A DNA stretch of 49,395 nt from Candidatus Blautia merdipullorum (GTDB lineage: Bacteria; Bacillota; Clostridia; Lachnospirales; Lachnospiraceae), in assembly GCA_019118685.1 (NCBI GenBank), contig DWYL01000096.1, positions 1-49,395 of the forward strand, read 5' to 3'. The position numbers and the translations under genes are program-made. The notes below the pieces were generated by a model. It was not told the DNA's origin and made no database searches. It worked only from the letters and a program-made list of their open reading frames with translations. This document shows positions 14,670-39,963 of the stretch, one piece after another. Positions within the stretch are counted from its first letter, which is position 1, and every line of letters begins with the position of its first letter.

Positions 14670-14882
14670 TATTTTTAGGCTGCGCTGCTTCGGCTTCGGA
14701 GGATTCCTCCTCTGCCTCGAATAAGAAAAACCTCTTTGCCTGAAAGACAAAGAGGTACTGATCAATCTTAGAATCTGCAAAGATACTTCATCTCTGCTTC
14801 TGTAATTAAGAATGAAACTTTCCTCGGCAGGCGTTTTCATCATTATACCTTACGGCACCTGCTGTCTTCGGCAGCTAATCCT
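14670..14882 (-). ncRNA. L10 leader (cis-regulatory leader of rplJL), boundaries approximate
   Basis: About 200-nt structured leader between a promoter (14888-14916) and rplJ, containing an internal terminator/attenuator hairpin CCTCTTTG-tctttcagg-CAAAGAGGTTTTT (14726-14755); position and architecture match Firmicutes L10 leaders. Not tested with a covariance model. Confidence 0.7.
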
Positions 14883-14887
14883 TTGAT

Positions 14888-14916
14888 AACATAGCATACT
14901 TAAAAATGCTTGTCAA
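14888..14916 (-). promoter_or_regulatory. Promoter for rplJL
   Basis: Minus strand TTGACA-N17-TATGTT. Confidence 0.65.
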
Positions 14917-27097: not shown

Positions 27098-27126
27098 AGT
27101 TTAACTTCTTTCCCCGGCATAATCAA
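27098..27126 (-). promoter_or_regulatory. Promoter-like sequence for the MoxR/VWA operon
   Basis: Minus strand TTGATT-N17-TAAACT, directly after repeat copy 1. Confidence 0.4.
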
Positions 27127-27149
27127 TTTAAAAAAACAGGAAACGCCAT

Positions 27150-27275
27150 ATTAAACAATATCGAGAATATTTATATATTTTATGCGAATTTGTCGAGCAC
27201 AGCTTTGAGACCATAGGCTCAAAGTGGCGCAGACTGAGCAATAAAATATATAAATATTCCTGACATATGTTTAAT
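27150..27275 (+). repeat. 126-bp dispersed palindromic element, copy 1 (core in orientation A)
   Basis: ATTAAACAATATCGAGAATATTTATATATTTT - core ATGCGAATTTGTCGAGCACAGCTTTGAGACCATAGGCTCAAAGTGGCGCAGACTGAGCAAT - AAAATATATAAATATTCCTGACATATGTTTAAT; enclosed by stem AAAAACAGGAAACGCCAT/ATGGCGTTCCCTGTTTTT (27132-27149 / 27276-27293). Confidence 0.9.
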
Positions 27276-27299
27276 ATGGCGTTCCCTGTTTTTGTTTAT

Positions 27300-28355
27300 T
27301 TAGGCTGCGCTCCCTCTCCCGGAGCTTCGCCTTCCGCAGGCCCGGTCGAATTCTTTCAGCTTTTCTTTTGCCTCCTGGCTTACATGCTGAGGAACCTGAA
27401 TTTCGATCTGGGCATATTGATCTCCCTTTACAGAAGGATCCTTCATAGAAACGATACCTTTTCCTTTCAGGCGGATCTTCATTCCTGACTGGATTCCTTC
27501 TCTGATCTTACATACAACATTGCCATAAATGGTAGGCACTACCGCTTCTCCCCCCAGCACCGCGGTGCTGAAAGGAATCTTTACTGTAGTGTAGATATCC
27601 AGTCCTTTCCTCTCATATCCCGGCTTTTCTTCCACAGTTACCTGAAGGAGCAGATCTCCTGCCGCTCCGCCGTTGGCTCCAGGCATTCCCTTTCCTCTCA
27701 GACGGATACTCTTTCCTGTTTCGATTCCTGCCGGAATGTGGACTTCCAGTGACTGTACAGCGCCGGTAGACGGATCCTTCAGGCTGAGGACTTTCTTGCA
27801 GCCAAAGGCAGCCTCTTCAAAACTGATGATCACAGAGGCTGTCATATCTGCTCCCTTCTGAGAACGGCGGCCTCCATAGCTTCTTCCAAAGCCCCCGAAA
27901 TCTCCGCCAAAGTCCTGGCCGCCGAAGCCGCCAAAACCGCCTTTATCAAAACCGCTTCCTGAAAAGCCGCCGCTGCCCTGGCCATGGAACATGTCTCCGA
28001 ATATGTTCTTAAAAATATCGTCCATATCTCCCGGATCTCCCTGGAAATGATATTCCCGGTATCCCCCGCCAGGTCCTCCATAGCTGTAACTGCCTGAAGT
28101 CCCCGGACCGCCCTGGGAAGCGCCTCCGTCAAACGCCCCGCGACCGAACTGATCGTAAAGTTTTCTCTTTTTATCATCACTTAATACATTATAGGCTTCT
28201 GTAACTTCCTTAAACATCTCCTCGGCCTTAGGATTTCCGGCATTTGTATCCGGATGATATTTCTTTGCCAGTTTTCTGTAAGCCTTTTTAATGGCATTGG
28301 CGTCTGCATTCCTGTCAACACCTAAAACCTCATAATAATCTCTCTTTTTCTCCAT
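27300..28355 (-). CDS. DnaJ-domain co-chaperone lacking the zinc-finger domain (CbpA-like)
   Basis: [38 protein letters not shown] (J domain with HPD), G/F-rich linker, DnaJ C-terminal domain; no CxxCxGxG repeats. Confidence 0.93.
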
Positions 28356-28492
28356 TATAACCACCCTCTGCTATATACCTGCTATATGAAGCGCCTCCAT
28401 TCTGGACCAAAGATCCAAAGGGAGGCGCTGTACTGAAATTTCCTTGTTTCGAAAAAGCCTCTCTGACAGACTATTTTCTTTGTTCTATTTGT

Positions 28493-28521
28493 AATATAAC
28501 ACTGCACTTTTCTTGTGTCAA
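28493..28521 (-). promoter_or_regulatory. Promoter upstream of DnaJ-domain gene
   Basis: Minus strand TTGACA-N17-TATATT. Confidence 0.65.
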
Positions 28522-28645
28522 GGTCTATTTATGATCACAGACATGATTTTATGGATTTTTAACATAAATAGCAAAAAAAGTATTGTACCGTCAAAAACAG
28601 TAATGCTATAATCTTTACATAATAATCAAAAAGGAGGGTTACACT

Positions 28646-29827
28646 ATGAGCAGATTTTGTCTACCCAGAGATATCTATCATGGAAAAGGCTGTCTAGAAG
28701 AATTGAAGAATTTAAAGGGCAGCAGAGCAATGCTGGTAGTCGGCGGCGGCTCTATGAAACGGCAGGGCTTTCTGGATAAAGCTGTTGACTATCTGAAAGA
28801 AGGTGGAATGGAGGTCCAGGTATTTGAAGGCGTAGAACCAGATCCTTCTGTGGAAACTGTTATGAAAGGTGCGGAAGCTATGAAGGCCTTCCAGCCGGAC
28901 TGGATCGTTGCCATGGGCGGCGGCTCCCCCATTGACGCGGCCAAAGCAATGTGGGCATTCTACGAATACCCGGATGTGACCTTTGAAGCTTTATGCACAC
29001 CCTTTAATTTCCCTGAACTGAGACAAAAGGCAAAATTTGCCGCTATTCCTTCAACTTCAGGAACTGCCACAGAAGTCACCGCCTTCTCTGTTATTACCGA
29101 TTATCAGACTGGAGTGAAATATCCTCTGGCAGACTTTAACATCACCCCTGATGTAGCCATCGTTGATCCGGATCTGGTTGCAGGTCTTCCGGTAAAGCAG
29201 GTTGCCTACACAGGAATGGACGCCCTGACCCACGCTATTGAAGCCTATGTATCTACCCTTCATGGACCATTTACAGATCCTCTGGCTCTTCAGGCCATTG
29301 AAATGGTCCTGGACTATCTGCCGGCATCCTACAATATGAACATGGACGCAAGAGAGCAGATGCATTACGCTCAGTGCCTGGCAGGAATGGCATTTTCCAA
29401 CGCCCTTCTCGGAATTGTCCACTCTATGGCTCATAAAACCGGAGCTGCTTTCTCCACAGGACATATTCCCCATGGCTGCGCCAACGCTATTTATTTACCC
29501 TATGTGATCCAGTACAATGCAAAAAATAAAGAAGCCGCGGAAAGATATGCAGAAATCGCCAGAAGAATGGGACTGGATGGAAACTCCCAGCAGGCCTTGA
29601 TCAACAGCCTGAGAAAGAAAATCCAGAAATTCAATAAACTGATGAACATCCCTCTTACACTGAAAGACTTTGGCATTCAGGAAGAAGAATTCAAAGAAAA
29701 ACTGCCTAAGATTGCAGAACTGGCCGTAGGAGATGCCTGCACCGGCTCCAATCCAAGAGAGATCACACCGGCTCAGATGGAAAAACTGCTGACCTGTACC
29801 TATTACGGAACAGAAGTAGATTTTTAA
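28646..29827 (+). CDS. Iron-containing alcohol dehydrogenase
   Basis: 393 aa; MGGGSPIDAAKAMW, STSGTATEVTAFSVITD, GMDALTHAIEAYVS, HSMAHKTGAAFSTGHIPHGCANAI. Confidence 0.94.
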   Translation: MSRFCLPRDIYHGKGCLEELKNLKGSRAMLVVGGGSMKRQGFLDKAVDYLKEGGMEVQVFEGVEPDPSVETVMKGAEAMKAFQPDWIVAMGGGSPIDAAKAMWAFYEYPDVTFEALCTPFNFPELRQKAKFAAIPSTSGTATEVTAFSVITDYQTGVKYPLADFNITPDVAIVDPDLVAGLPVKQVAYTGMDALTHAIEAYVSTLHGPFTDPLALQAIEMVLDYLPASYNMNMDAREQMHYAQCLAGMAFSNALLGIVHSMAHKTGAAFSTGHIPHGCANAIYLPYVIQYNAKNKEAAERYAEIARRMGLDGNSQQALINSLRKKIQKFNKLMNIPLTLKDFGIQEEEFKEKLPKIAELAVGDACTGSNPREITPAQMEKLLTCTYYGTEVDF

Positions 29828-29914
29828 AATATATGGTTGAAACCGGTTTGCTAATGGAAAAGGGAGAGAGAAAAAGCCGAAAATACACCCGAAGGTAACT
29901 CCTCTGTGAATACC

Positions 29915-29967
29915 AAAAGCCAGTCTGTCCGGAGCTCTCATATGCTCCTGTCTCAGACTGGCTTTTT
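29915..29967. terminator. Bidirectional terminator between ADH and lipoprotein gene
   Basis: AAAAGCCAGTCTG...CAGACTGGCTTTTT. Confidence 0.85.
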
Positions 29968-29985
29968 CATTCTGTTTCTGATTTT

Positions 29986-30507
29986 TTATTCTTCTGTCAC
30001 AGCGCTGATCTCCAGAGAAGATACGCTGTCTCCGTCGAGGCCGATGGTCATTTCTGTATCGCCTTTTTCATATACCAGGCTGGTATCGGATTCCTCTGCC
30101 GGATCTCCGTAAGCTTCTGTGACCTGGTCTTTTGTGCTTCCGATGGCGATGCCTTCTTCTGTCTCTACTGTGTCGTCCATGAATACTACGGACAATACAT
30201 AATCTTTATCTTCCTCCGGATATGTATTCAATTTAAATCCAGGATATGTATAGACCTTGTCAAGTCCTTCAAAAGCGCAGCTTTCTGACTCAAAATAGTC
30301 CAGCGGCTCTCCCAGCTTTTCCACAACTGCCGCTGCGTCAGAATTCATCTCAATGGTTACACTGCCGTTTGTATAGGTAAATCCAGGCTCTGATGAAGAA
30401 CCTCCGCCGTTTCCTGAACCATCTCCTGAGCCTGAGCAGGCAGCCAGGCTTCCAAGGCTGAGTATCATAACCGCAGCTGCGATTCCCTTAATCTTATTCA
30501 TTTCCAA
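29986..30507 (-). CDS. Putative lipoprotein
   Basis: Signal peptide with lipobox LGSLAAC, Gly/Ser linker, then small acidic domain. Confidence 0.8.
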   Translation of the reverse strand: MEMNKIKGIAAAVMILSLGSLAACSGSGDGSGNGGGSSSEPGFTYTNGSVTIEMNSDAAAVVEKLGEPLDYFESESCAFEGLDKVYTYPGFKLNTYPEEDKDYVLSVVFMDDTVETEEGIAIGSTKDQVTEAYGDPAEESDTSLVYEKGDTEMTIGLDGDSVSSLEISAVTEE

Positions 30508-30590
30508 TTCCTCCTAAAACCATTCTCTGAAACCCAGTTTAGCCTTATCTATGCCATAAGTCAAACCTTATTTGCATATTTCTTGTCTTC

Positions 30591-31658
30591 TCAATAACTG
30601 ATGATCTCTCCATATTTTTCCAGCTCCTCATACTGAGCTTCTTTCATATTCTCATAGAACTGGATCTTTTCCTCATAAACCTGCTCATATTCCGGATCTT
30701 CCCGGTAATCTGTCAGGTCATAGGTTTCTGTTAAATATTCTCCGAAATACTTCGACAGCTTCTCTGCCCCGCTTAAATTCAAATGGAGTCCGGCGTCATA
30801 GGTATCTGTGCTGTAGTCAATGCCGATCTCATCTGCCAGCTTTTCATAGTTAAAGTAATCCAGGCCATACTTCTCTGCGTAATCCACAATCTGCTGATCC
30901 CATTCCTCATACCAATGAGGATAGAGGCTGGGGGATTTTACCAGGACAAATTCAATGCCATTATCCTCACAGAGCCGGCGCATCTTATCCAGATAGCCCA
31001 TGGCATTGCTGCCCAGCGTATAGTCCGCCAGGATATCCGGCTCCGGAAATCCTTCTGCCGGTCTTACATCTACTCTCATATAATAGCCATTATGAAAAAG
31101 CTTATCCTTGTGGAACATATACTGGAAATCTTCCGCAGACAGTTCCGACCATCTGGAATGGTAGCGGAGGATGGGGAAAATATAGTCCAGCATATTTTCT
31201 TCTTCTGTCATAGAAGACTGGATGGCTCCGATCTTTGATTTCGACCACTTCATTCCGTCTATGCTCATCCGGTTGTAGGCTTCGCTCTGAGGCTCATTAT
31301 ATTTCAATGCCAGGACATTGAACACTACCACTTTCGGTGTTTCATACCGGAGAGTATCCTCCAGCAGATAATACGACTGCCAGGCCAGCTGCTGGGCAGA
31401 ACCCCGGATATAACTGGTGATACCATAATCCCGGTACATCTCAATAGGAGAAAAGTTCTCATAAACCTCACAGTCCCCCACAAAGATCACTTCATGATCC
31501 GTGGTTTCCTGGTAATATTCTTCTACCAGATTTCCCTCTACAATATCCGACATATATTTAGGCATCAGCAGTTTCTGCAGGAAGAACAGTACCAGGATCA
31601 GCACCGCTGCCAGCAACGCCACAGCGGCAGGCCACTTAGGAAATTTTTTTGCTTTCAT
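30591..31658 (-). CDS. Membrane-anchored SGNH/DltD-like protein with Cys at the nucleophile position
   Basis: N-terminal TM; VIFVGDCEVYENFSP (GDS-like block with C), YDAGLHLNLSGAEKLS (DxxH-like block); downstream of MBOAT gene. Confidence 0.75.
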   Translation of the reverse strand: MKAKKFPKWPAAVALLAAVLILVLFFLQKLLMPKYMSDIVEGNLVEEYYQETTDHEVIFVGDCEVYENFSPIEMYRDYGITSYIRGSAQQLAWQSYYLLEDTLRYETPKVVVFNVLALKYNEPQSEAYNRMSIDGMKWSKSKIGAIQSSMTEEENMLDYIFPILRYHSRWSELSAEDFQYMFHKDKLFHNGYYMRVDVRPAEGFPEPDILADYTLGSNAMGYLDKMRRLCEDNGIEFVLVKSPSLYPHWYEEWDQQIVDYAEKYGLDYFNYEKLADEIGIDYSTDTYDAGLHLNLSGAEKLSKYFGEYLTETYDLTDYREDPEYEQVYEEKIQFYENMKEAQYEELEKYGEIISY

Positions 31659-31673
31659 GATAAGTCCTTCCTC

Positions 31674-33269
31674 CTAAAACTGATTATAGATAAACTGGCT
31701 CTGGTCATAACCAATGCCGTAAGCGCCGAATACGATCACTACCAGAGTCATAATACCGAAGATAATGTACTTCCAGACCGCCGGGGAAGCATAGATCAGA
31801 TCTCTCACACTGCCCTTCCGTTCCTCGGTAAGACTTACCGCCACTACAATGACCAGGCAGATAAAAAGCAGAAGATAGTCCGCACCTGTAAGCCCCAGTC
31901 CCAGGAAAGCTTCTCCTGTAAGAGCTGTGATGTCAAAGTGAGTAAACATATTCCCAAACATCTTAAAGGTCAGAGGCACATCCCGGTAGCAGTCAAACAT
32001 ACGGATAGCGCTCATCAGCAGGATCGTCCGGATGATCTCAAAGGCTCCGTACCATTTCTTATCCTTTACCTGGAACCTGTGATGGAACTTTCTGTACAGA
32101 GGCTCCAGTTCCTGGGAGATCATGATCACCACAAAGTTCATAAGACCCCAGACAATAAAGTTCCAGCTTGCGCCGTGCCAGATACCGGTAGTAAACCATA
32201 CTACAAAGGAAGACAGATACACCGGCACCCTTTTTCCCACTGCGTCACCGAATTTTGCCCGTGAAAATTTGGAGATCTTCAGCATAGGTTTACACACGGA
32301 GATGGGATAAAAAATATAGTCTGTAAACCAGGTACCCATGGTGATATGCCATCTCTTCCAGTATTCCTTAATGTTCTTAGAAAGATAAGGCCTGCGGAAG
32401 TTCTCTGTCACAGTAATTCCCATGGTCTGGGCAATACCTATGGTAATGTCAATGCCTCCGGTAAAGTCTGCGTACAGCTCAAAGGCATAGAACATCATAC
32501 CTACAAATACGAATCCCCCCTGATAAACATCAGGGTTCTGGATGATCTCATTAACCGCCACCAGAATCCGGTCAGCAATGACCACCTTCTTAAAATATCC
32601 CCACAGGATACGGTACAGTCCGTAGGATACCACCTTTGTGTCAAAAGCATGCTCCTCAAAAAGAGACTTGGCCAGGTCATTAAACCGGCTGATGGGTCCC
32701 TGGACAAGCTGGGGGAAGAAGGATACAAAGAGGGCCAGCTTAAACAGATTCCTCTCTGCCTTGCAGGTTCCTCTGTAAACATCAATAATATATCCCATAG
32801 TCTGGAAGGTATAGAAAGAAATCCCCATGGGCAGGATCAGGTTCACAAAGGAAAGTTCATTTGTGCTGTGGAAAGCCTCCAGGATCCCGTTGATATTGGC
32901 AATGACAAAATTGGTGTATTTCAGCACCGCCAGTATTCCCAGGTTAAAAATAAGGCAGACCAGCAGCCATTTCCACTGCTTTCCCTTCATCTTTGCCTTA
33001 TAGGTTTTCTTCTCGTCTTTGGTGATGTTCCCTTTGTTTGCTTTTATGTAGGCGTCCTGCTCTGTCTTAATGCTCTCCAGCTTCCGGCTCACCAGATAGG
33101 TGGATACCGTGGTTGCCGCGATAAAGATCAGATAAGAAGGGCTGGCGATAAAGTAAAAGATGTAGCTGGCCATCAGCAGCAAAGGCCACTGGCACTTCTT
33201 GGGCAGCACATAATACAGGATGAACACCACCGAAATAAACCCGATGAAACTATATGATGTAAAAAGCAT
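31674..33269 (-). CDS. MBOAT-family O-acyltransferase (DltB-like)
   Basis: 531 aa multi-TM; WHGASWNFIVWGLMNF active-site His region; ENFRRPYLSKNIKEYWKRWHITMGTWFTDYIFYP. Confidence 0.93.
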   Translation of the reverse strand: MLFTSYSFIGFISVVFILYYVLPKKCQWPLLLMASYIFYFIASPSYLIFIAATTVSTYLVSRKLESIKTEQDAYIKANKGNITKDEKKTYKAKMKGKQWKWLLVCLIFNLGILAVLKYTNFVIANINGILEAFHSTNELSFVNLILPMGISFYTFQTMGYIIDVYRGTCKAERNLFKLALFVSFFPQLVQGPISRFNDLAKSLFEEHAFDTKVVSYGLYRILWGYFKKVVIADRILVAVNEIIQNPDVYQGGFVFVGMMFYAFELYADFTGGIDITIGIAQTMGITVTENFRRPYLSKNIKEYWKRWHITMGTWFTDYIFYPISVCKPMLKISKFSRAKFGDAVGKRVPVYLSSFVVWFTTGIWHGASWNFIVWGLMNFVVIMISQELEPLYRKFHHRFQVKDKKWYGAFEIIRTILLMSAIRMFDCYRDVPLTFKMFGNMFTHFDITALTGEAFLGLGLTGADYLLLFICLVIVVAVSLTEERKGSVRDLIYASPAVWKYIIFGIMTLVVIVFGAYGIGYDQSQFIYNQF

Positions 33270-33280
33270 GACGTCCTCTC

Positions 33281-33514
33281 TTATTCGTCTTCATCTTCCA
33301 GGCGCTGGATCAGCTCATAAAGAGCCTTGGCTGAGTTAAAGTTCTCCGGCACGATATCCTCAGCGGGGATCACTACGTCATACTCATCATTGATCTCTGA
33401 GATAATCGTGACAATATCAAAAGAATCAATGATCCTGTCGTCTACCAGTGTAGTGCAGGTTTCAAAATCAACATCCGGGTGAAGGTTCTTTAAGATTTCC
33501 ATTAATGGTTCCAT
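33281..33514 (-). CDS. Acyl carrier protein (DltC-like)
   Basis: 77 aa; DDRIIDSFDIVTIISEINDEYDVVI with phosphopantetheine Ser. Confidence 0.9.
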   Translation of the reverse strand: MEPLMEILKNLHPDVDFETCTTLVDDRIIDSFDIVTIISEINDEYDVVIPAEDIVPENFNSAKALYELIQRLEDEDE

Positions 33515-33516
33515 AA

Positions 33517-35043
33517 TTATTTTCTCCTTTTCTTTTCCTCATAGATTTGTTTAAGTTTGTTTCTGTCAGTTTTTCCATTTGCTGTCAGAGGCATCTGTTC
33601 CAGCGCATATACATGGTTGGGGATCATATATCTGGGAAGCTTCTTTTTCAGCTGGGTGATCAGCGCCCCGCTCTCCACATCTCCAACATAAAACAGTATG
33701 ATCTTTTCTTTTTCTTTATCATAAATGCAGCATGCGCTGCCAATGCCCCCGATCATATTTACATGAACCTCGATCTCGCCAAGCTCGATCCTGTGGCCCA
33801 TATGTTTGATCTGAAAATCTTTCCGGGAGATAAAGACCAGTTCTCCTCTTTCATTGAGCTTTCCAATATCTCCTGTCCGGTAGATCAGTTCATGATAGCT
33901 GTGGTTTAAAGGATTCTGGACAAAGACCTCATCGGTCTTTTCCGGATTGTTGTAATATCCCAGGGTAAGGGCAGTTCCCCGGATACATATCTCTCCCGGA
34001 TCTCCCTGTCTTGGCACCTGGTTTTTTTCATCTAAAAGGATCACTTCTGTGTTTCTGAAAGGCCTTCCGATAGGGATCGGCTCCCCTTCCTGAAAATCTC
34101 TGTCCACCTCATAGTAACAGCTCATTCCGGTAGCCTCTGTGGGACCATAGAGATTTATAAATCTGGCATTGGGAAGGGCCTTTCTCCAGAGGTTAAACTG
34201 TCTAATAGGGAAGACCTCGCTTCCAAAAGCAATGGTATGAAGGTATTTTGGCACCACCTTGTCAAAGGTCTTCATTGAAGAGATCATAGTAAGGGCCGAT
34301 ACCACCCAGCATACCGTATTGATCTTATATTCATTTAAAAATTCCACCAGCTTAATGGGGAACATAAATAAAGCCTTGGGTACCAGATAGGTGGTAGCCC
34401 CGCATTTCAGGCTGGAAAACAGTTCCTTTAAGCAGGCGTCAAAATAAAGAGGGGTCTGATTTGCCAATACTGAATCTTCATTTACCCCCAGCACTTCCGT
34501 CAGACTTTCCACATAATCAATCACAGACCGGTGACAGGCCGCGACTCCTTTAGGGATCCCTGTAGAGCCTGAGGTAAATACTATATAGATAGGATCTGTG
34601 TCGATGGCTCTTCGCCGGATAGCCAAAAGAGCCTGGTCATTCGCCGGATAGCCGGCAATGTCATCATAGAGAAGAATCTCTCCGGTAAAGTCCTCAAACT
34701 CCCGGATCTGTCTGCTGGTCACTTCATCACAGATCACTGCTCTGGGTTTCAGATTCTGGAAGATCAGTTCGATCCGGAACCTGGGCATTTCCTCATCAAT
34801 GGGAACATAAAAGCAGCTGCTGTAAACAACGCCCCAGAACGCCGCGATCATATGAGGATGCTTCTGCATATAGATCACAACCGGTTCTTTTTCATATCCC
34901 TTCTCATAAAGGCAGGAACCAATGCTTCTGGAAACCTGATATACCTCCTGAAAAGACATCTCCATCTTCTCATTGGCAAAGGCTGTCTTATCCGGATACT
35001 TCTGTACAGTATCTTCCAGATATTCCAAAATATTTCTTTTCAT
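33517..35043 (-). CDS. Amino acid adenylation enzyme (DltA-like AMP-binding)
   Basis: IVFTSGSTGIPKGV, NLYGPTEATGMSCYY, YRTGDIGKLNERGELVFISRKDFQIKHMGHRIELGEIE, PLTANGKTDRNKL; Asp in YFDACLKE consistent with alpha-amino acid binding. Confidence 0.9.
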   Translation of the reverse strand: MKRNILEYLEDTVQKYPDKTAFANEKMEMSFQEVYQVSRSIGSCLYEKGYEKEPVVIYMQKHPHMIAAFWGVVYSSCFYVPIDEEMPRFRIELIFQNLKPRAVICDEVTSRQIREFEDFTGEILLYDDIAGYPANDQALLAIRRRAIDTDPIYIVFTSGSTGIPKGVAACHRSVIDYVESLTEVLGVNEDSVLANQTPLYFDACLKELFSSLKCGATTYLVPKALFMFPIKLVEFLNEYKINTVCWVVSALTMISSMKTFDKVVPKYLHTIAFGSEVFPIRQFNLWRKALPNARFINLYGPTEATGMSCYYEVDRDFQEGEPIPIGRPFRNTEVILLDEKNQVPRQGDPGEICIRGTALTLGYYNNPEKTDEVFVQNPLNHSYHELIYRTGDIGKLNERGELVFISRKDFQIKHMGHRIELGEIEVHVNMIGGIGSACCIYDKEKEKIILFYVGDVESGALITQLKKKLPRYMIPNHVYALEQMPLTANGKTDRNKLKQIYEEKKRRK

Positions 35044-35089
35044 CTTTTTTCTCCTACTGTTTATATATCTTTCTAATGCCGGAACAGTT

Positions 35090-35809
35090 TCACTCTTCCG
35101 GCATCAGCAGATTTTCATATTCTTTTTTTAATTTCTTGCCGCATCGGACTACACACCTCTGAGCAAGGACTTCCAGGGCGTCCAGATATTCTTTTCCCAG
35201 GGGAACATCTTTCTTTATCAGGGAAAGCTCTGTACAGCCTAAAAGGATTACCTGAGCGCCCTGGTCCTTCAGCTGTAGGGAAACCTTCTGAAATTTTTCC
35301 ATGTCTGCCGGAAGACCGGCCTTCAGGTTTTTATATATAACATCCATGATATCCTGCTGGCGGCGTTCGTCCGGGAGCAGGACCTCTATCCCCATTTTCT
35401 CCAGCTGATCCTGGAAGATCCTGCTCTCTATGGTGCCGTCTGTAGCCATCAGCCCTGCTCTTTTGATCCCATTCTTCTGGAGTTCCAGGCCGGTCTCATA
35501 AATCCCATGGATGATAGGCACCGGAATATTCTCCGATAATTCCCGGTAGAAATAGTGGGCCGTTATACAGGGAATGGCTATGCAGGATACCTCTTTGGCC
35601 AGTTTTTTCCCGATTTTCAGCATAGGCTCTACCGGGCTGTCCTTGGATCTTCCCAGGATAAAGGCTGTCCTGTCCGGAATATAAGGGGCGCTGTGGATCA
35701 GGATCTCAAGGTGATCCTGATCGCACTGTGCCTCTGTCATTTTCGTTATCATTTCTAAAAAGCAGGCTGTAGCCATAGGCCCCAAGCCTCCGATCACTCC
35801 TAATTTCAT
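35090..35809 (-). CDS. Aspartate/glutamate racemase family protein
   Basis: MKLGVIGGLGPMATACFLEMI; catalytic Cys blocks IPCITAHYF and LLGCTELSL. Confidence 0.9.
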   Translation of the reverse strand: MKLGVIGGLGPMATACFLEMITKMTEAQCDQDHLEILIHSAPYIPDRTAFILGRSKDSPVEPMLKIGKKLAKEVSCIAIPCITAHYFYRELSENIPVPIIHGIYETGLELQKNGIKRAGLMATDGTIESRIFQDQLEKMGIEVLLPDERRQQDIMDVIYKNLKAGLPADMEKFQKVSLQLKDQGAQVILLGCTELSLIKKDVPLGKEYLDALEVLAQRCVVRCGKKLKKEYENLLMPEE

Positions 35810-35821
35810 AGACGCCTCCTG

Positions 35822-37441
35822 CTATTCTATGGTGGAATCTGTGGTCGGGGTTGCCGGATACAGACTCTGGTCAAAGATGTGGCTGTTGTCATGGGATTCT
35901 GAATATTCCAGCAGCTCTTCATCTGTCAGCATAAAAAATTCTCCTCCTCCTGATCTTGGAGTCGTATCAAAATGGTACCATCCGTCGCCGCAGTCGATCA
36001 GGCTCCAGTAATGGCTGGAATGGCTGGTATCGCTTTTTACCACATCAATATTAGGGATACCCGCCTCTGTCAGCAGCGCCTTAGCTGTAGAAAAGAAAAC
36101 AAAGCAGTCTCCCTGGCCCTGGGTAAAGCCCTGATGGGCGCCGTTGGTCCAGCTGTCCTTATCCGATGTGCTGATGTAGCCGATATTATTTCTGCACCAG
36201 TCATAGATAGCTCTTGCCTTTTCTTTCAGTGTCATATCATCTGTGGTAATCTCTGCAAGAACTTCATCTGCTTCTGCGTAAACTTCTTCCGGCTCCACAT
36301 AGTCCTGCGGTTTTTCCTTCATTGTAATGGTAGTCTCCGCCTGGGCTGTGTTTCCGGCCCGGTCTGTAGCCGTATAGATCACATCATAGGTTCCCTCAGT
36401 CTCTGTATCCACATCGCTGGTATCTACCTCCAGCTCCACTTCTTTGTCGCAGTTATCTGTAACCGTGATCTCTGATTTATAGGAAATCGGTTCCCCGATA
36501 AATCCTTCCAAAGGCGCCACACCGTCGATCACCGGCTCCTCTGTATCCTCGATCACCTCTGCCTCTGATTCAATTTCTGTGGTATTTCCCCCTTCATCTG
36601 TAAGGACTATGGTGACCGGTACGGTTCCCACGCCGGAGAGATCCGGTTCCTCTTTAAAACTGCATGTCACATCTGTGTTGTCCTCAATATTCGTCACCAG
36701 CTCATCCGGTGACAACTCACCGCCCACGTTTACCGTAGCGGTTTCCGCCTCTCCTTTAGGAGCTTCTGTATCCTGGACCGATAAAGTGCTGGTCCTTTCC
36801 TTTCCGTTCACATTCAGCTGGATTTCCTGCTCCCCCACATGGCTGGTATCGACCTGGGTCATATCTGTGACAAATTCTGCGTCTCCATCCTTCCGCAGGA
36901 AATTAGACGTCTGAAAATCCTGGGTCCCCGCTTCCACTGTCACGGTCCTCAAAACCGGATTCGAAAAGAAAATGCCATAGATCAGCAGGATCACTATCAC
37001 ACCCGCAAGAACTCCCCCTGCTCCCCGGACAGCAATCTTTCTTTTACGCTGCCGGATTTCTTCCTCTCTTCTTTTTCGTTCCCGTCTCTTTCTTTTCTGC
37101 GCTAAATATTCCTGATAGTCTCTTTCATTCTCCTGTTCTAAGATCTCCCATTCTCTCAGATTGTTCTCCGCCCCGGACCTTCTGCGGCGGTTCTCCCCAT
37201 AGGCAGACTGGAACCTTCTTCTGCCTGGCTGTCCCGGAGTTCCACTTTGGCGGCCCGTACTCCTTCTTCCGGTGCTGATCCTGGTATAAACCCCCTCTTT
37301 ATAATGATTGTCCTTACTCTGCTGTGGAATAATATCTCCCGAATGGATTTTCTGGGAGCGGTGGGATGAATTCCTCTTCTGATATGTTTTTCTCTGCGAA
37401 TAAACTGTATTGCTTTCCTTTTTCTCCTGGTAACCGTCCAT
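35822..37441 (-). CDS. Membrane-anchored transglutaminase-like protein with Ig-like domains
   Basis: Cytoplasmic basic N-terminus, TM GGVLAGVIVILLIYGIFF, DUF5011-like Ig repeats (DTEEPVIDGVAPLEGFIGEPI...), C-terminal GQGDCFVFFSTAKALL...SHYWSLIDCGDGWYHFDTTP (Cys-His-Asp). Start MDGYQEKK at 37441 preferred. Confidence 0.85.
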   Translation of the reverse strand: MDGYQEKKESNTVYSQRKTYQKRNSSHRSQKIHSGDIIPQQSKDNHYKEGVYTRISTGRRSTGRQSGTPGQPGRRRFQSAYGENRRRRSGAENNLREWEILEQENERDYQEYLAQKRKRRERKRREEEIRQRKRKIAVRGAGGVLAGVIVILLIYGIFFSNPVLRTVTVEAGTQDFQTSNFLRKDGDAEFVTDMTQVDTSHVGEQEIQLNVNGKERTSTLSVQDTEAPKGEAETATVNVGGELSPDELVTNIEDNTDVTCSFKEEPDLSGVGTVPVTIVLTDEGGNTTEIESEAEVIEDTEEPVIDGVAPLEGFIGEPISYKSEITVTDNCDKEVELEVDTSDVDTETEGTYDVIYTATDRAGNTAQAETTITMKEKPQDYVEPEEVYAEADEVLAEITTDDMTLKEKARAIYDWCRNNIGYISTSDKDSWTNGAHQGFTQGQGDCFVFFSTAKALLTEAGIPNIDVVKSDTSHSSHYWSLIDCGDGWYHFDTTPRSGGGEFFMLTDEELLEYSESHDNSHIFDQSLYPATPTTDSTIE

Positions 37442-37493
37442 GATTCCTACCTTATATCTATAGAATTTTTCGTAGTTTTTCGACTTATCCTTA

Positions 37494-37522
37494 ATTCTAA
37501 CCTTGCGTGGTATATTTGTCAA
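37494..37522 (-). promoter_or_regulatory. Promoter for the transglutaminase/dlt-like operon
   Basis: Minus strand TTGACA-N17-TAGAAT, directly after repeat copy 2. Confidence 0.7.
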
Positions 37523-37539
37523 TAAACATGGAGCTGACG

Positions 37540-37665
37540 ATTAAGCAAAATCAAGAATATTTATACATTTAATTACTCAGTCTGCGTAGCTTTGAGCCTA
37601 TATCTCAAAGCTATACTCGCCAAATTTGCATAAAGTGTATAATTATTCCTGATATATGTCTTAAT
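37540..37665 (-). repeat. 126-bp dispersed palindromic element, copy 2 (core inverted relative to arms compared with copy 1)
   Basis: ATTAAGCAAAATCAAGAATATTTATACATTTA - core that is the reverse complement of the copy 1 core - AAAGTGTATAATTATTCCTGATATATGTCTTAAT; enclosed by stem GGAGCTGacg/gctaCAGCTCC (37530-37539 / 37666-37676). Strand refers to the core. Confidence 0.88.
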
Positions 37666-37682
37666 GCTACAGCTCCTGTCTT

Positions 37683-38111
37683 CTATAGATCTGTTAAATT
37701 TTTTTCTATTTTTTCAAGAATCCTATATACTGTCTCCAGTTCGTCCTTTGTGATTCCTTTCTGGAGTATTTCATCCAGCCAGTTAAACTCTTCTCTTACC
37801 AGCTTTCCCTTCTCTTTTCCTATCTCTGTCAGACTGATAAGATGAGATCTTCTGCTTGCGGGATTTCTGTTCCGCTGTATCAGGCCTGCCTGTTCCATTT
37901 TGTCCAGCGTACGGGACATTGTGGTCGCGTCAAACATACACAGATCCGCCAGTTCCCTCTGGGTCAGCTCTCCCCGGTCCAGCAGACAGTCCAGGATTCT
38001 GGGCTGCCCTTCTCCCACTGTAAGTCCGAGTGCCAGAAATTTCGGCCGCATCAGCTGTCTTCTCTCCAGATCCAGCCGGTGAAGGATTTTTCTTATACTG
38101 TTTCTTTCCAT
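37683..38111 (-). CDS. MarR-family transcriptional regulator
   Basis: MERNSIRKILHRLDLERRQLMRPKFLALGLTVGEGQPRILDCLLDRGELTQRELADLCMFDATTMSRTLDKMEQAGLIQRNRNPASRRSHLISLTEIG; start set by 5-nt spacing to upstream ABC gene stop. Confidence 0.92.
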   Translation of the reverse strand: MERNSIRKILHRLDLERRQLMRPKFLALGLTVGEGQPRILDCLLDRGELTQRELADLCMFDATTMSRTLDKMEQAGLIQRNRNPASRRSHLISLTEIGKEKGKLVREEFNWLDEILQKGITKDELETVYRILEKIEKNLTDL

Positions 38112-38115
38112 CTTC

Positions 38116-39963
38116 TCACTCCAATTCAAATTGTCCGGTATACAGCTGGTAATACCGGCCTTTCTGTTCCAGAAGCTCCTCATGGCTGCCTCTTTCGATG
38201 ATCTCTCCTTTTTCCAGGACCATAATAGCCTTTGCGTTCCGGACGGTAGACAGCCTGTGAGCAATGACAAATACCGTCCTTCCCTCCATGATCCCATCCA
38301 TTCCTTTTTCAATCATCCTTTCTGTCCTGGTATCAATGGAGCTGGTGGCCTCATCCAATACCAGCACCGGAGGCTTTGCCACCGCTGCTCTGGCAATAGC
38401 CAGCAGCTGCCGCTGTCCCTGGGAAAGATTGCTGCCGTCGCTGTAGAGCATGGTGTCATACCCCTGGGGCAGACGCCGGATAAAGGAATCTGCATTGGCG
38501 ATCTCTGCCGCCGCCCTTATCTCTTTTTCTGAGGCATCCAGTTTTCCATAACGGATATTATCCGCGATAGTTCCGGTGAACAAATGGGTCTCCTGGATGA
38601 CCATTGCCAGAGAACGGCGCAGATCATCCTTTCGTATATCCCGGATGTCAATTCCGTCATAAGTAATGGTTCCGGACTGGATCTCGTAGAAGCGGTTAAC
38701 CAGATTAATGATGGTGGTCTTTCCCGCTCCTGTAGATCCTACAAAAGCAATCTTCTGTCCCGGCTTGGCGTAAAGGGAAATACCGTTGAGGATCTTTTTT
38801 CCCGGCACATAGCCGAAGACCACCTCATGGAAACGCACATCTCCCTTTAAAGGCACCAGTTCCCCTGTTTCCGGTAGCTTCCATGCAAATTTTCCGGTAT
38901 ACGTTTCGGACTCCTTAAATCTTCCTTCATCTTCTGCCGCATTACATAAGGTAACTCTTCCTTCATCTGGTTCCGGTTCTTCTTCCATCATTTCAAAGAT
39001 CCTCTCCGCTCCGGAAAGGGCTGCCAGAAGGAAGTTTACCTGCTGGGTAAATTGGTTAAGAGGCATGGCGCTCTGGCGCACATATACCAGATAGGAAGCC
39101 AGGCTTCCAAGATCCAGAAGCCCCGTAAGAGTAAACAGGCCTCCTACACAGGCAGACACTGCATAGTTTACATAAGACAGGCTTACAATGGTAGGGACCA
39201 TCATTCCTGAAAACGTCAGTGCGTTGGTAGATTCCCGGCGGAGGTCTTCATTTATCCTGCGGAAGGTTTCAAAATCTTTTTTCTCATGATTAAAGACTTT
39301 TTCCACCTTCAGTCCTGCCGTCATCTCCTCTACAAAACCATTGATCTTTCCCAGTTCTTCCTGCTGCCTCTGAAAATATTTTTTGCTTCTTTTCCCGTTG
39401 AACTTAATAAAGGCAAACATGAGCAAAAGAAAGATCACAACGATCAAAGACAGACGGATGCTCAGGACCATCATCATGACTACGGTTCCGAAGAGCATCA
39501 TAAAGCTTTGTATGATCATGGCAAAGCTGTTGTTCATTGCCTCCTGTACCGTGTCCACATCATTGGTAAACCGGCTCATCAGCTCTCCATGAGTATGAGC
39601 GTCGAAATATTTTAGCGGCAGCTTCTGCACATGGGCGAAAAGATCTGCTCTTATTTCTTTCACTACTTTCTGAGCCGAACAGATCATCAGCTGATTATAG
39701 CCAAGAGTGGCAAGGGCCCCGCAGGCATACATAGCTCCCATACCGGCCACTGCCAGGAGAAGGCCCTTCTTGTCTCCCGGCAGAATGAACTGATTGATCA
39801 CCGGCTTCAGGAGATAGGTCCCCATAATATTAGCTCCTGCGCTGATCAGCACCAGAAGGGCCACCAGCATAAACATCCACTTATGCATCCCCAGATATTT
39901 CATAAGATGCAAAATGGTTTTTTTCGTATCTTTCGGTCTTTTATATCCCACATATCTTGCCAT
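38116..39963 (-). CDS. ABC exporter half-transporter (TMD-NBD), canonical Walker B Glu
   Basis: GSTGAGKTTIINLVNRFYE, LSQGQRQLLAIARAA, VLVLDEATSSID. Confidence 0.95.
   Translation of the reverse strand: MARYVGYKRPKDTKKTILHLMKYLGMHKWMFMLVALLVLISAGANIMGTYLLKPVINQFILPGDKKGLLLAVAGMGAMYACGALATLGYNQLMICSAQKVVKEIRADLFAHVQKLPLKYFDAHTHGELMSRFTNDVDTVQEAMNNSFAMIIQSFMMLFGTVVMMMVLSIRLSLIVVIFLLLMFAFIKFNGKRSKKYFQRQQEELGKINGFVEEMTAGLKVEKVFNHEKKDFETFRRINEDLRRESTNALTFSGMMVPTIVSLSYVNYAVSACVGGLFTLTGLLDLGSLASYLVYVRQSAMPLNQFTQQVNFLLAALSGAERIFEMMEEEPEPDEGRVTLCNAAEDEGRFKESETYTGKFAWKLPETGELVPLKGDVRFHEVVFGYVPGKKILNGISLYAKPGQKIAFVGSTGAGKTTIINLVNRFYEIQSGTITYDGIDIRDIRKDDLRRSLAMVIQETHLFTGTIADNIRYGKLDASEKEIRAAAEIANADSFIRRLPQGYDTMLYSDGSNLSQGQRQLLAIARAAVAKPPVLVLDEATSSIDTRTERMIEKGMDGIMEGRTVFVIAHRLSTVRNAKAIMVLEKGEIIERGSHEELLEQKGRYYQLYTGQFELE

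Follow-up and report, generated by a model that had tools for sequence, protein, structure and literature searches.

A probable IS1182-like, hairpin-replacing MITE family with a structured core in Blautia

The window analysed here is a 49,395-nucleotide stretch of DNA from Candidatus Blautia merdipullorum, a chicken-gut Blautia. It carries two copies of a palindromic repeat, each lying against the 3' end of a minus-strand gene. Copy 1 (27139–27285, plus strand, where strand is defined by the core reading GCGAATTTG..GACTGAGCA) abuts a dnaJ-type gene (27303–28364), and copy 2 (37530–37676, minus strand) abuts a gene for a MarR-type regulator (37686–38312) that an ABC transporter gene precedes. 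An ordinary ribosomal protein L10 leader (RF00557, 68 bits) lies elsewhere in the window, at 14716–14889 on the minus strand. The first-pass annotation located the repeat correctly and took it for a 126-bp unit; its true length is 147 bp, with GG..CC ends, in both copies. Across the family, the element spans about 125–150 bp and consists of AT-rich inverted arms around a 57-bp asymmetric hairpin core. In copy 1, the left arm (27150–27183), the core (27184–27240, 57 bp) and the right arm (27241–27275) are all given on the plus strand, and full imperfect pairing extends over about 27125–27300, with an A run on the left and a T run on the right. The inner arm ends form a perfect 19-bp inverted repeat flanking the core, as had been annotated. 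The core of copy 2 reads GCAAATTTG..GACTGAGTA on the minus strand (37574–37629). Folding as single-stranded DNA gave z = -11.9 for copy 1 and z = -5.6 for copy 2.

The segments at 27150–27275 and 37540–37665 had been proposed to share the same arms around oppositely oriented cores, and the alignments bear this out. In direct orientation, the left arms are identical at 29/34 positions and the right arms at 30/36; the cores match at 47/58 positions after reverse-complementing and at 35/61 directly, with an alignment score of 32, where none of 500 shuffles exceeded -4. The arms remain fairly alike when reverse-complemented (28/36 and 28/35), a consequence of the palindromic nature of every element, and the call of direct or inverted arms depends on a few tip letters. 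Two palindromic copies alone are therefore no proof of a flipped core, and it is the family-wide arm-tip signatures that supply it.

BLASTN of the unit yielded about 40 dispersed loci in the genome of Ca. B. merdipullorum itself and hit 12 of the 19 other Blautia genomes searched, which confirms the suspected repeat family; there were no matches in 21 genomes outside Blautia, and none in phages or plasmids. We therefore set aside phages and plasmids as observed carriers of the repeat. The exact core pattern occurs mostly in chicken-gut Blautia (Ca. B. avicola, pullistercoris, stercorigallinarum and stercoripullorum, and Blautia sp. An81), with one further match each in a Mediterraneibacter MAG (L204) and a Merdivicinus MAG (L201). 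Both of these copies may be contaminants. The Merdivicinus copy in particular probably reflects contamination or a binning error, since its nested locus is the same as L188 and L349 of Blautia. At 147 bp and about 40 copies in its own genome, the repeat is short, non-coding, dispersed and multi-copy, as MITEs are.

In nearly all copies, an arm tip of type CATATGTCAGGAATA lies beside the GCGAATTTG core end and a tip of type TCAAAATCGAGAATA beside the GACTGAGCA core end. Scripted scoring placed 114 of the 150 distinct copies in this canonical arrangement, the remainder being mostly truncated or diverged. Copy 2 is canonical. In copy 1, the left arm bears the tip type ATCGAGAATA, normally the neighbour of the GACTGAGCA core end, and the right arm bears CATATGTCAGGAATA on the minus strand, normally the neighbour of the GCGAATTTG core end, so that its core is flipped relative to its own arm tips. 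Copy 1 is thus the rearranged one, and not copy 2, which the first-pass annotation had named as the possible exception. Four loci are flipped: copy 1, L002 in the same genome, L031 in genome G001, and one orthologous locus shared by several genomes (L003, L032, L036 and L055). L070 (G019) appears to be a fifth, in degraded form. Part of this set was assigned by inspection, since diverged tips are mis-scored by the script. In G007 and G013, which are more distant, the copies (L041, L042, L051 and L053) apparently have an arm order opposite to that of the main clade; canonical here means commonest, and not necessarily ancestral. An assembly artefact at copy 1 is unlikely, as a private TATATA variant sits in both of its arms and other genomes also contain copies of the flipped type.

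Comparison of orthologues shows that the element does invert at its site. Private stem variants (GAGCCGCT[T/C]CATTAG and CATACTACAG) are common to G000 and G018 at the L019 locus, with the arm tips in reversed order, and G018 has lost the core. At the L031 locus, G001 has its arm tips swapped with respect to G002 and G014 and its core in unchanged direction, an outcome that takes either two inversions, one nested in the other, or re-insertion of the element. Internal deletion has reduced many orthologues to short palindromes. Both in-place inversion, which is occasional, and internal deletion, which is frequent, are expected of elements that are long inverted repeats; the inversion would come about by strand-switching between the 19–27-bp arms. 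Recombination between copies was rejected as the source of the flips; it predicts R/R and L/L arm pairs, and the one R/R and four L/L pairs called by the script proved mis-scored, truncated or ambiguous.

The perfect 19-bp inverted arms around the core of copy 1 would also suit a programmed invertible segment, with a recombinase turning the core over between the two arms to give two expression states. The real inversions between orthologues fit such a segment as well; the annotated invertible segment is supported to the extent of a rare evolutionary event, with inverted orthologues at two loci. A phase switch is nevertheless very improbable: only four loci and one degraded one are flipped against 114 canonical copies, so the two orientations are not both common across copies or strains; arm sequence is not conserved between genera, unlike that of a recombinase site; and the copies lie downstream of genes and not upstream. 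With so few flipped loci, the flipped core of copy 1 is a rare in-place inversion and not an on/off switch. More generally, the case warns that in palindromic repeats the same arms around a flipped core need not mean a programmed switch.

Simple ORF calling gave callable neighbours for 96 loci, of which 36 lie between convergent genes, 51 between co-directional genes and 9 between divergent genes. The co-directional copies show no strand preference relative to the genes (27 versus 24), and we accordingly rejected a strand-specific 3' RNA as an explanation. A/T runs occur outside 39% and 44% of the element ends, compared with 10.6% in the control. A simple terminator scan restricted to loops of 3–8 called none at either window copy, while the 3' position and the A/T runs are enriched. 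Since terminator hairpins lie just 3' of genes, where the copies are found, hairpin-targeted insertion fits this distribution.

Orthologous sites offer a view of what the element displaced. At L004, 13 bp of each native terminator stem arm are kept (ACAGGACCGGGAA/TTCCCGGTCCTGT), and the 22-nt apex is gone, with the element in its stead. At L015, where the native sequence is AAAGAATCTGCCTAAGCAGATTCTTT, the upper native stem-loop is gone. In G014, the element has taken over the position of the apical hairpin in a core that stands by itself, a hairpin retained in four other genomes, and in L201, L188, L191 and An81 (L349/L417) an element running exactly from GGAG to CTCC splits another core into two halves. 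Relatives also carry unrelated terminator-like hairpins at the L002 and L031 sites, and three genomes have a different native terminator-like hairpin at the L027 site. Two members of the IS1182 family, IS1272 and TnSha1, are published to target hairpins, commonly terminators, and to delete part of the hairpin, without target duplication and with insertion in both orientations (PMC5678879, PMC4923244). The IS1272-type pattern of hairpin insertion, partial hairpin loss and no target duplication was found at L004, L015, the G014 site and the L201 nested insertions. By sequence comparison, the element thus appears to have taken the place of a hairpin apex at four comparable loci.

The ends of the element, GG[A/G]GCTGTCGCATTA, point to the same family. 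Within 4 mismatches of GGAGCTGTCGCATTA, we recognised 98/136 left ends and 104/136 right ends, compared with 3/136 after shuffling; about a quarter of the ends are too diverged for recognition. Blautia genomes contain IS1182 transposases (NF033551, E 1e-98 and 8e-92), whose elements are bounded by GGGGCTGTCGCACTAAAT / GGGGCTGTCGCTTTAACG or GGGGCTGTCGG. The element has terminal inverted repeats in common with an autonomous IS, as in the IS1182 ends GGGGCTGTCGCACTAA of G007, although the similarity spans only about 12–16 bp. No IS1182 with matching ends was found in the draft genome of the window, nor did a PF13751 search of G002, G014 and G018 return one; these are draft assemblies, in which IS copies collapse. 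The mobiliser may be gone, or may be another IS. The core is absent from the Blautia IS1182 elements, so it was not borrowed from them. With no such IS in the window's own draft genome and no core in the IS elements, mobilisation in trans is an inference only. The annotated alternative of a non-autonomous mobile palindrome mobilised in trans is nonetheless supported by the dispersed copies, the IS1182-like ends, the native terminators at orthologous sites and the hairpin-replacing insertions.

A Y1 (TnpA-REP) transposase had been suggested as a co-occurring mobiliser, which would make the family REP/REPIN-like. Short intergenic palindromes in many copies are compatible with this, but Y1_Tnp (PF01797) does not track the repeat: several genomes rich in the repeat lack it (G002, G011, G014 and G013), and genomes free of the repeat have it (G004, G005, G010 and G015). 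The IS1182-like ends are also ill-suited to REP, and we regard this explanation as hardly credible.

Taken together, the repeat is most plausibly, from its sequence features, a MITE of the IS1182/IS1272 type. We give a probability of about 0.7 to the full reading of a hairpin-replacing IS1182-like MITE family with a structured core, in which copy 1 has undergone a rare in-place inversion and copy 2 is canonical. An IS1182-family transposase recognising the element ends would mobilise it in trans, the candidate being an IS1182 with GGGGCTGTCGCA[C/T]TAA ends. Like IS1272, the element would enter DNA hairpins and delete part of them without making a target duplication, and its long stem and flanking A/T runs could then stand in for the lost terminator.

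The asymmetric 57-bp hairpin core was, unexpectedly, the most conserved part of the element, and it also occurs outside it. In the window's own genome, three loci carry the core in unrelated, near-perfect stems that lack the element arms. The solo-core locus L058 is inherited in eight genomes (G000, G001, G002, G011, G014, G017, G018 and G019) and duplicated in three, and L059 and L060 are each inherited in at least four. Copies of the L058 locus in G014, G001 and G019 (L317, L318 and L320) consist of two tandem solo cores whose stems are diverged and internally compensated. A covariance-model search sampling 334 genera recovered the core in a second genus (G136 and G427, three copies in each) and a third (G350, with 11 copies or more, part of which have ends resembling GGGGCTGCCGCATTAA and inner arms that differ), along with a weak match in G334. 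In these two further Lachnospiraceae genera, unrelated stems carry the core. One G136 locus (L341) has a half core (CTCAAACCGAGCGCAGACC) about 50 bp past a full one. Solo cores with private stems lack the element ends, and the MITE model therefore leaves the core unexplained.

One explanation would make the core a regulatory RNA with defined structure, a motif embedded in terminators and outside Rfam; the palindromes would be its helices, and the mobile form would merely have spread it. Covariation is strong: among 32 sequences, double changes occur in 22/33 pairs (0/500 shuffles) and 96% of cells pair, versus 83% in shuffles, and with another genus added double changes occur in 18/27 pairs. 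Loops at the solo loci are 97–100% identical, compared with 78–91% for their flanks, and the housing of the core in unrelated stems in the two further genera likewise agrees with an RNA. Core helices have an excess of sense-strand G-T over A-C mismatches (41 versus 19, counts uncorrected for descent), but 15 of 27 internal-helix wobbles come from one pair, so that the excess is largely that of a single pair. In the outer stems the two mismatches are about equally frequent (G-T 12, A-C 14), as palindrome correction at the DNA level predicts, and the even strand distribution relative to genes also speaks against an RNA. Rfam gave no match at the gathering threshold and no credible one at E up to 10, and a known Rfam family was rejected as the identity of the core. 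We consider the regulatory RNA unlikely. With loops conserved and helix sequence free, the core is a candidate new structured element, and we tentatively raise another possibility for it: an undescribed structured nucleic-acid module, conserved in three or more Lachnospiraceae genera, with selection on the letters of its loops independently of helix sequence, which might have been captured by, or be the source of, a hairpin-replacing mobile element that keeps rewriting terminators and installing the module 3' of many genes.

If the hairpin-replacing MITE reading is true, a tiny non-coding element that takes the place of native terminators is reshaping dozens of gene 3' ends in common gut bacteria, and the orthologous sites provide many natural before/after pairs for testing hairpin choice by IS1182-type transposases. 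The insertion mode is already known from IS1272. The literature searched, coverage of which was incomplete, described no non-coding family that replaces terminators and has such a core. The element resembles IS1272 and TnSha1 in its insertion into hairpins, often terminators, in either orientation, with partial hairpin deletion and no target duplication, and it is comparable to them in that Blautia has transposases of the IS1182 family whose element ends match its own. It differs in that IS1272 and TnSha1 are transposase-bearing IS, whereas the Blautia element is non-coding, about 147 bp long and putatively mobile; it also carries a conserved asymmetric core, a part missing from the Blautia IS1182 elements. 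In phase-variable inversions such as invertible promoters, a segment between inverted repeats occurs in both orientations, as is seen here; in Blautia, the inversion is rare and evolutionary, lies 3' of genes and involves arms whose sequence is unconserved between genera. Bacterial MITEs and interspersed palindromes such as RUP, BOX and ERIC are short, non-coding and palindromic, with dozens of intergenic copies and IS-like ends. The Blautia element shares their size class, their form, their intergenic copies and their IS-like ends, while it is set apart by replacing hairpins instead of duplicating its target and by having as its most conserved unit a core that is also housed in unrelated stems.
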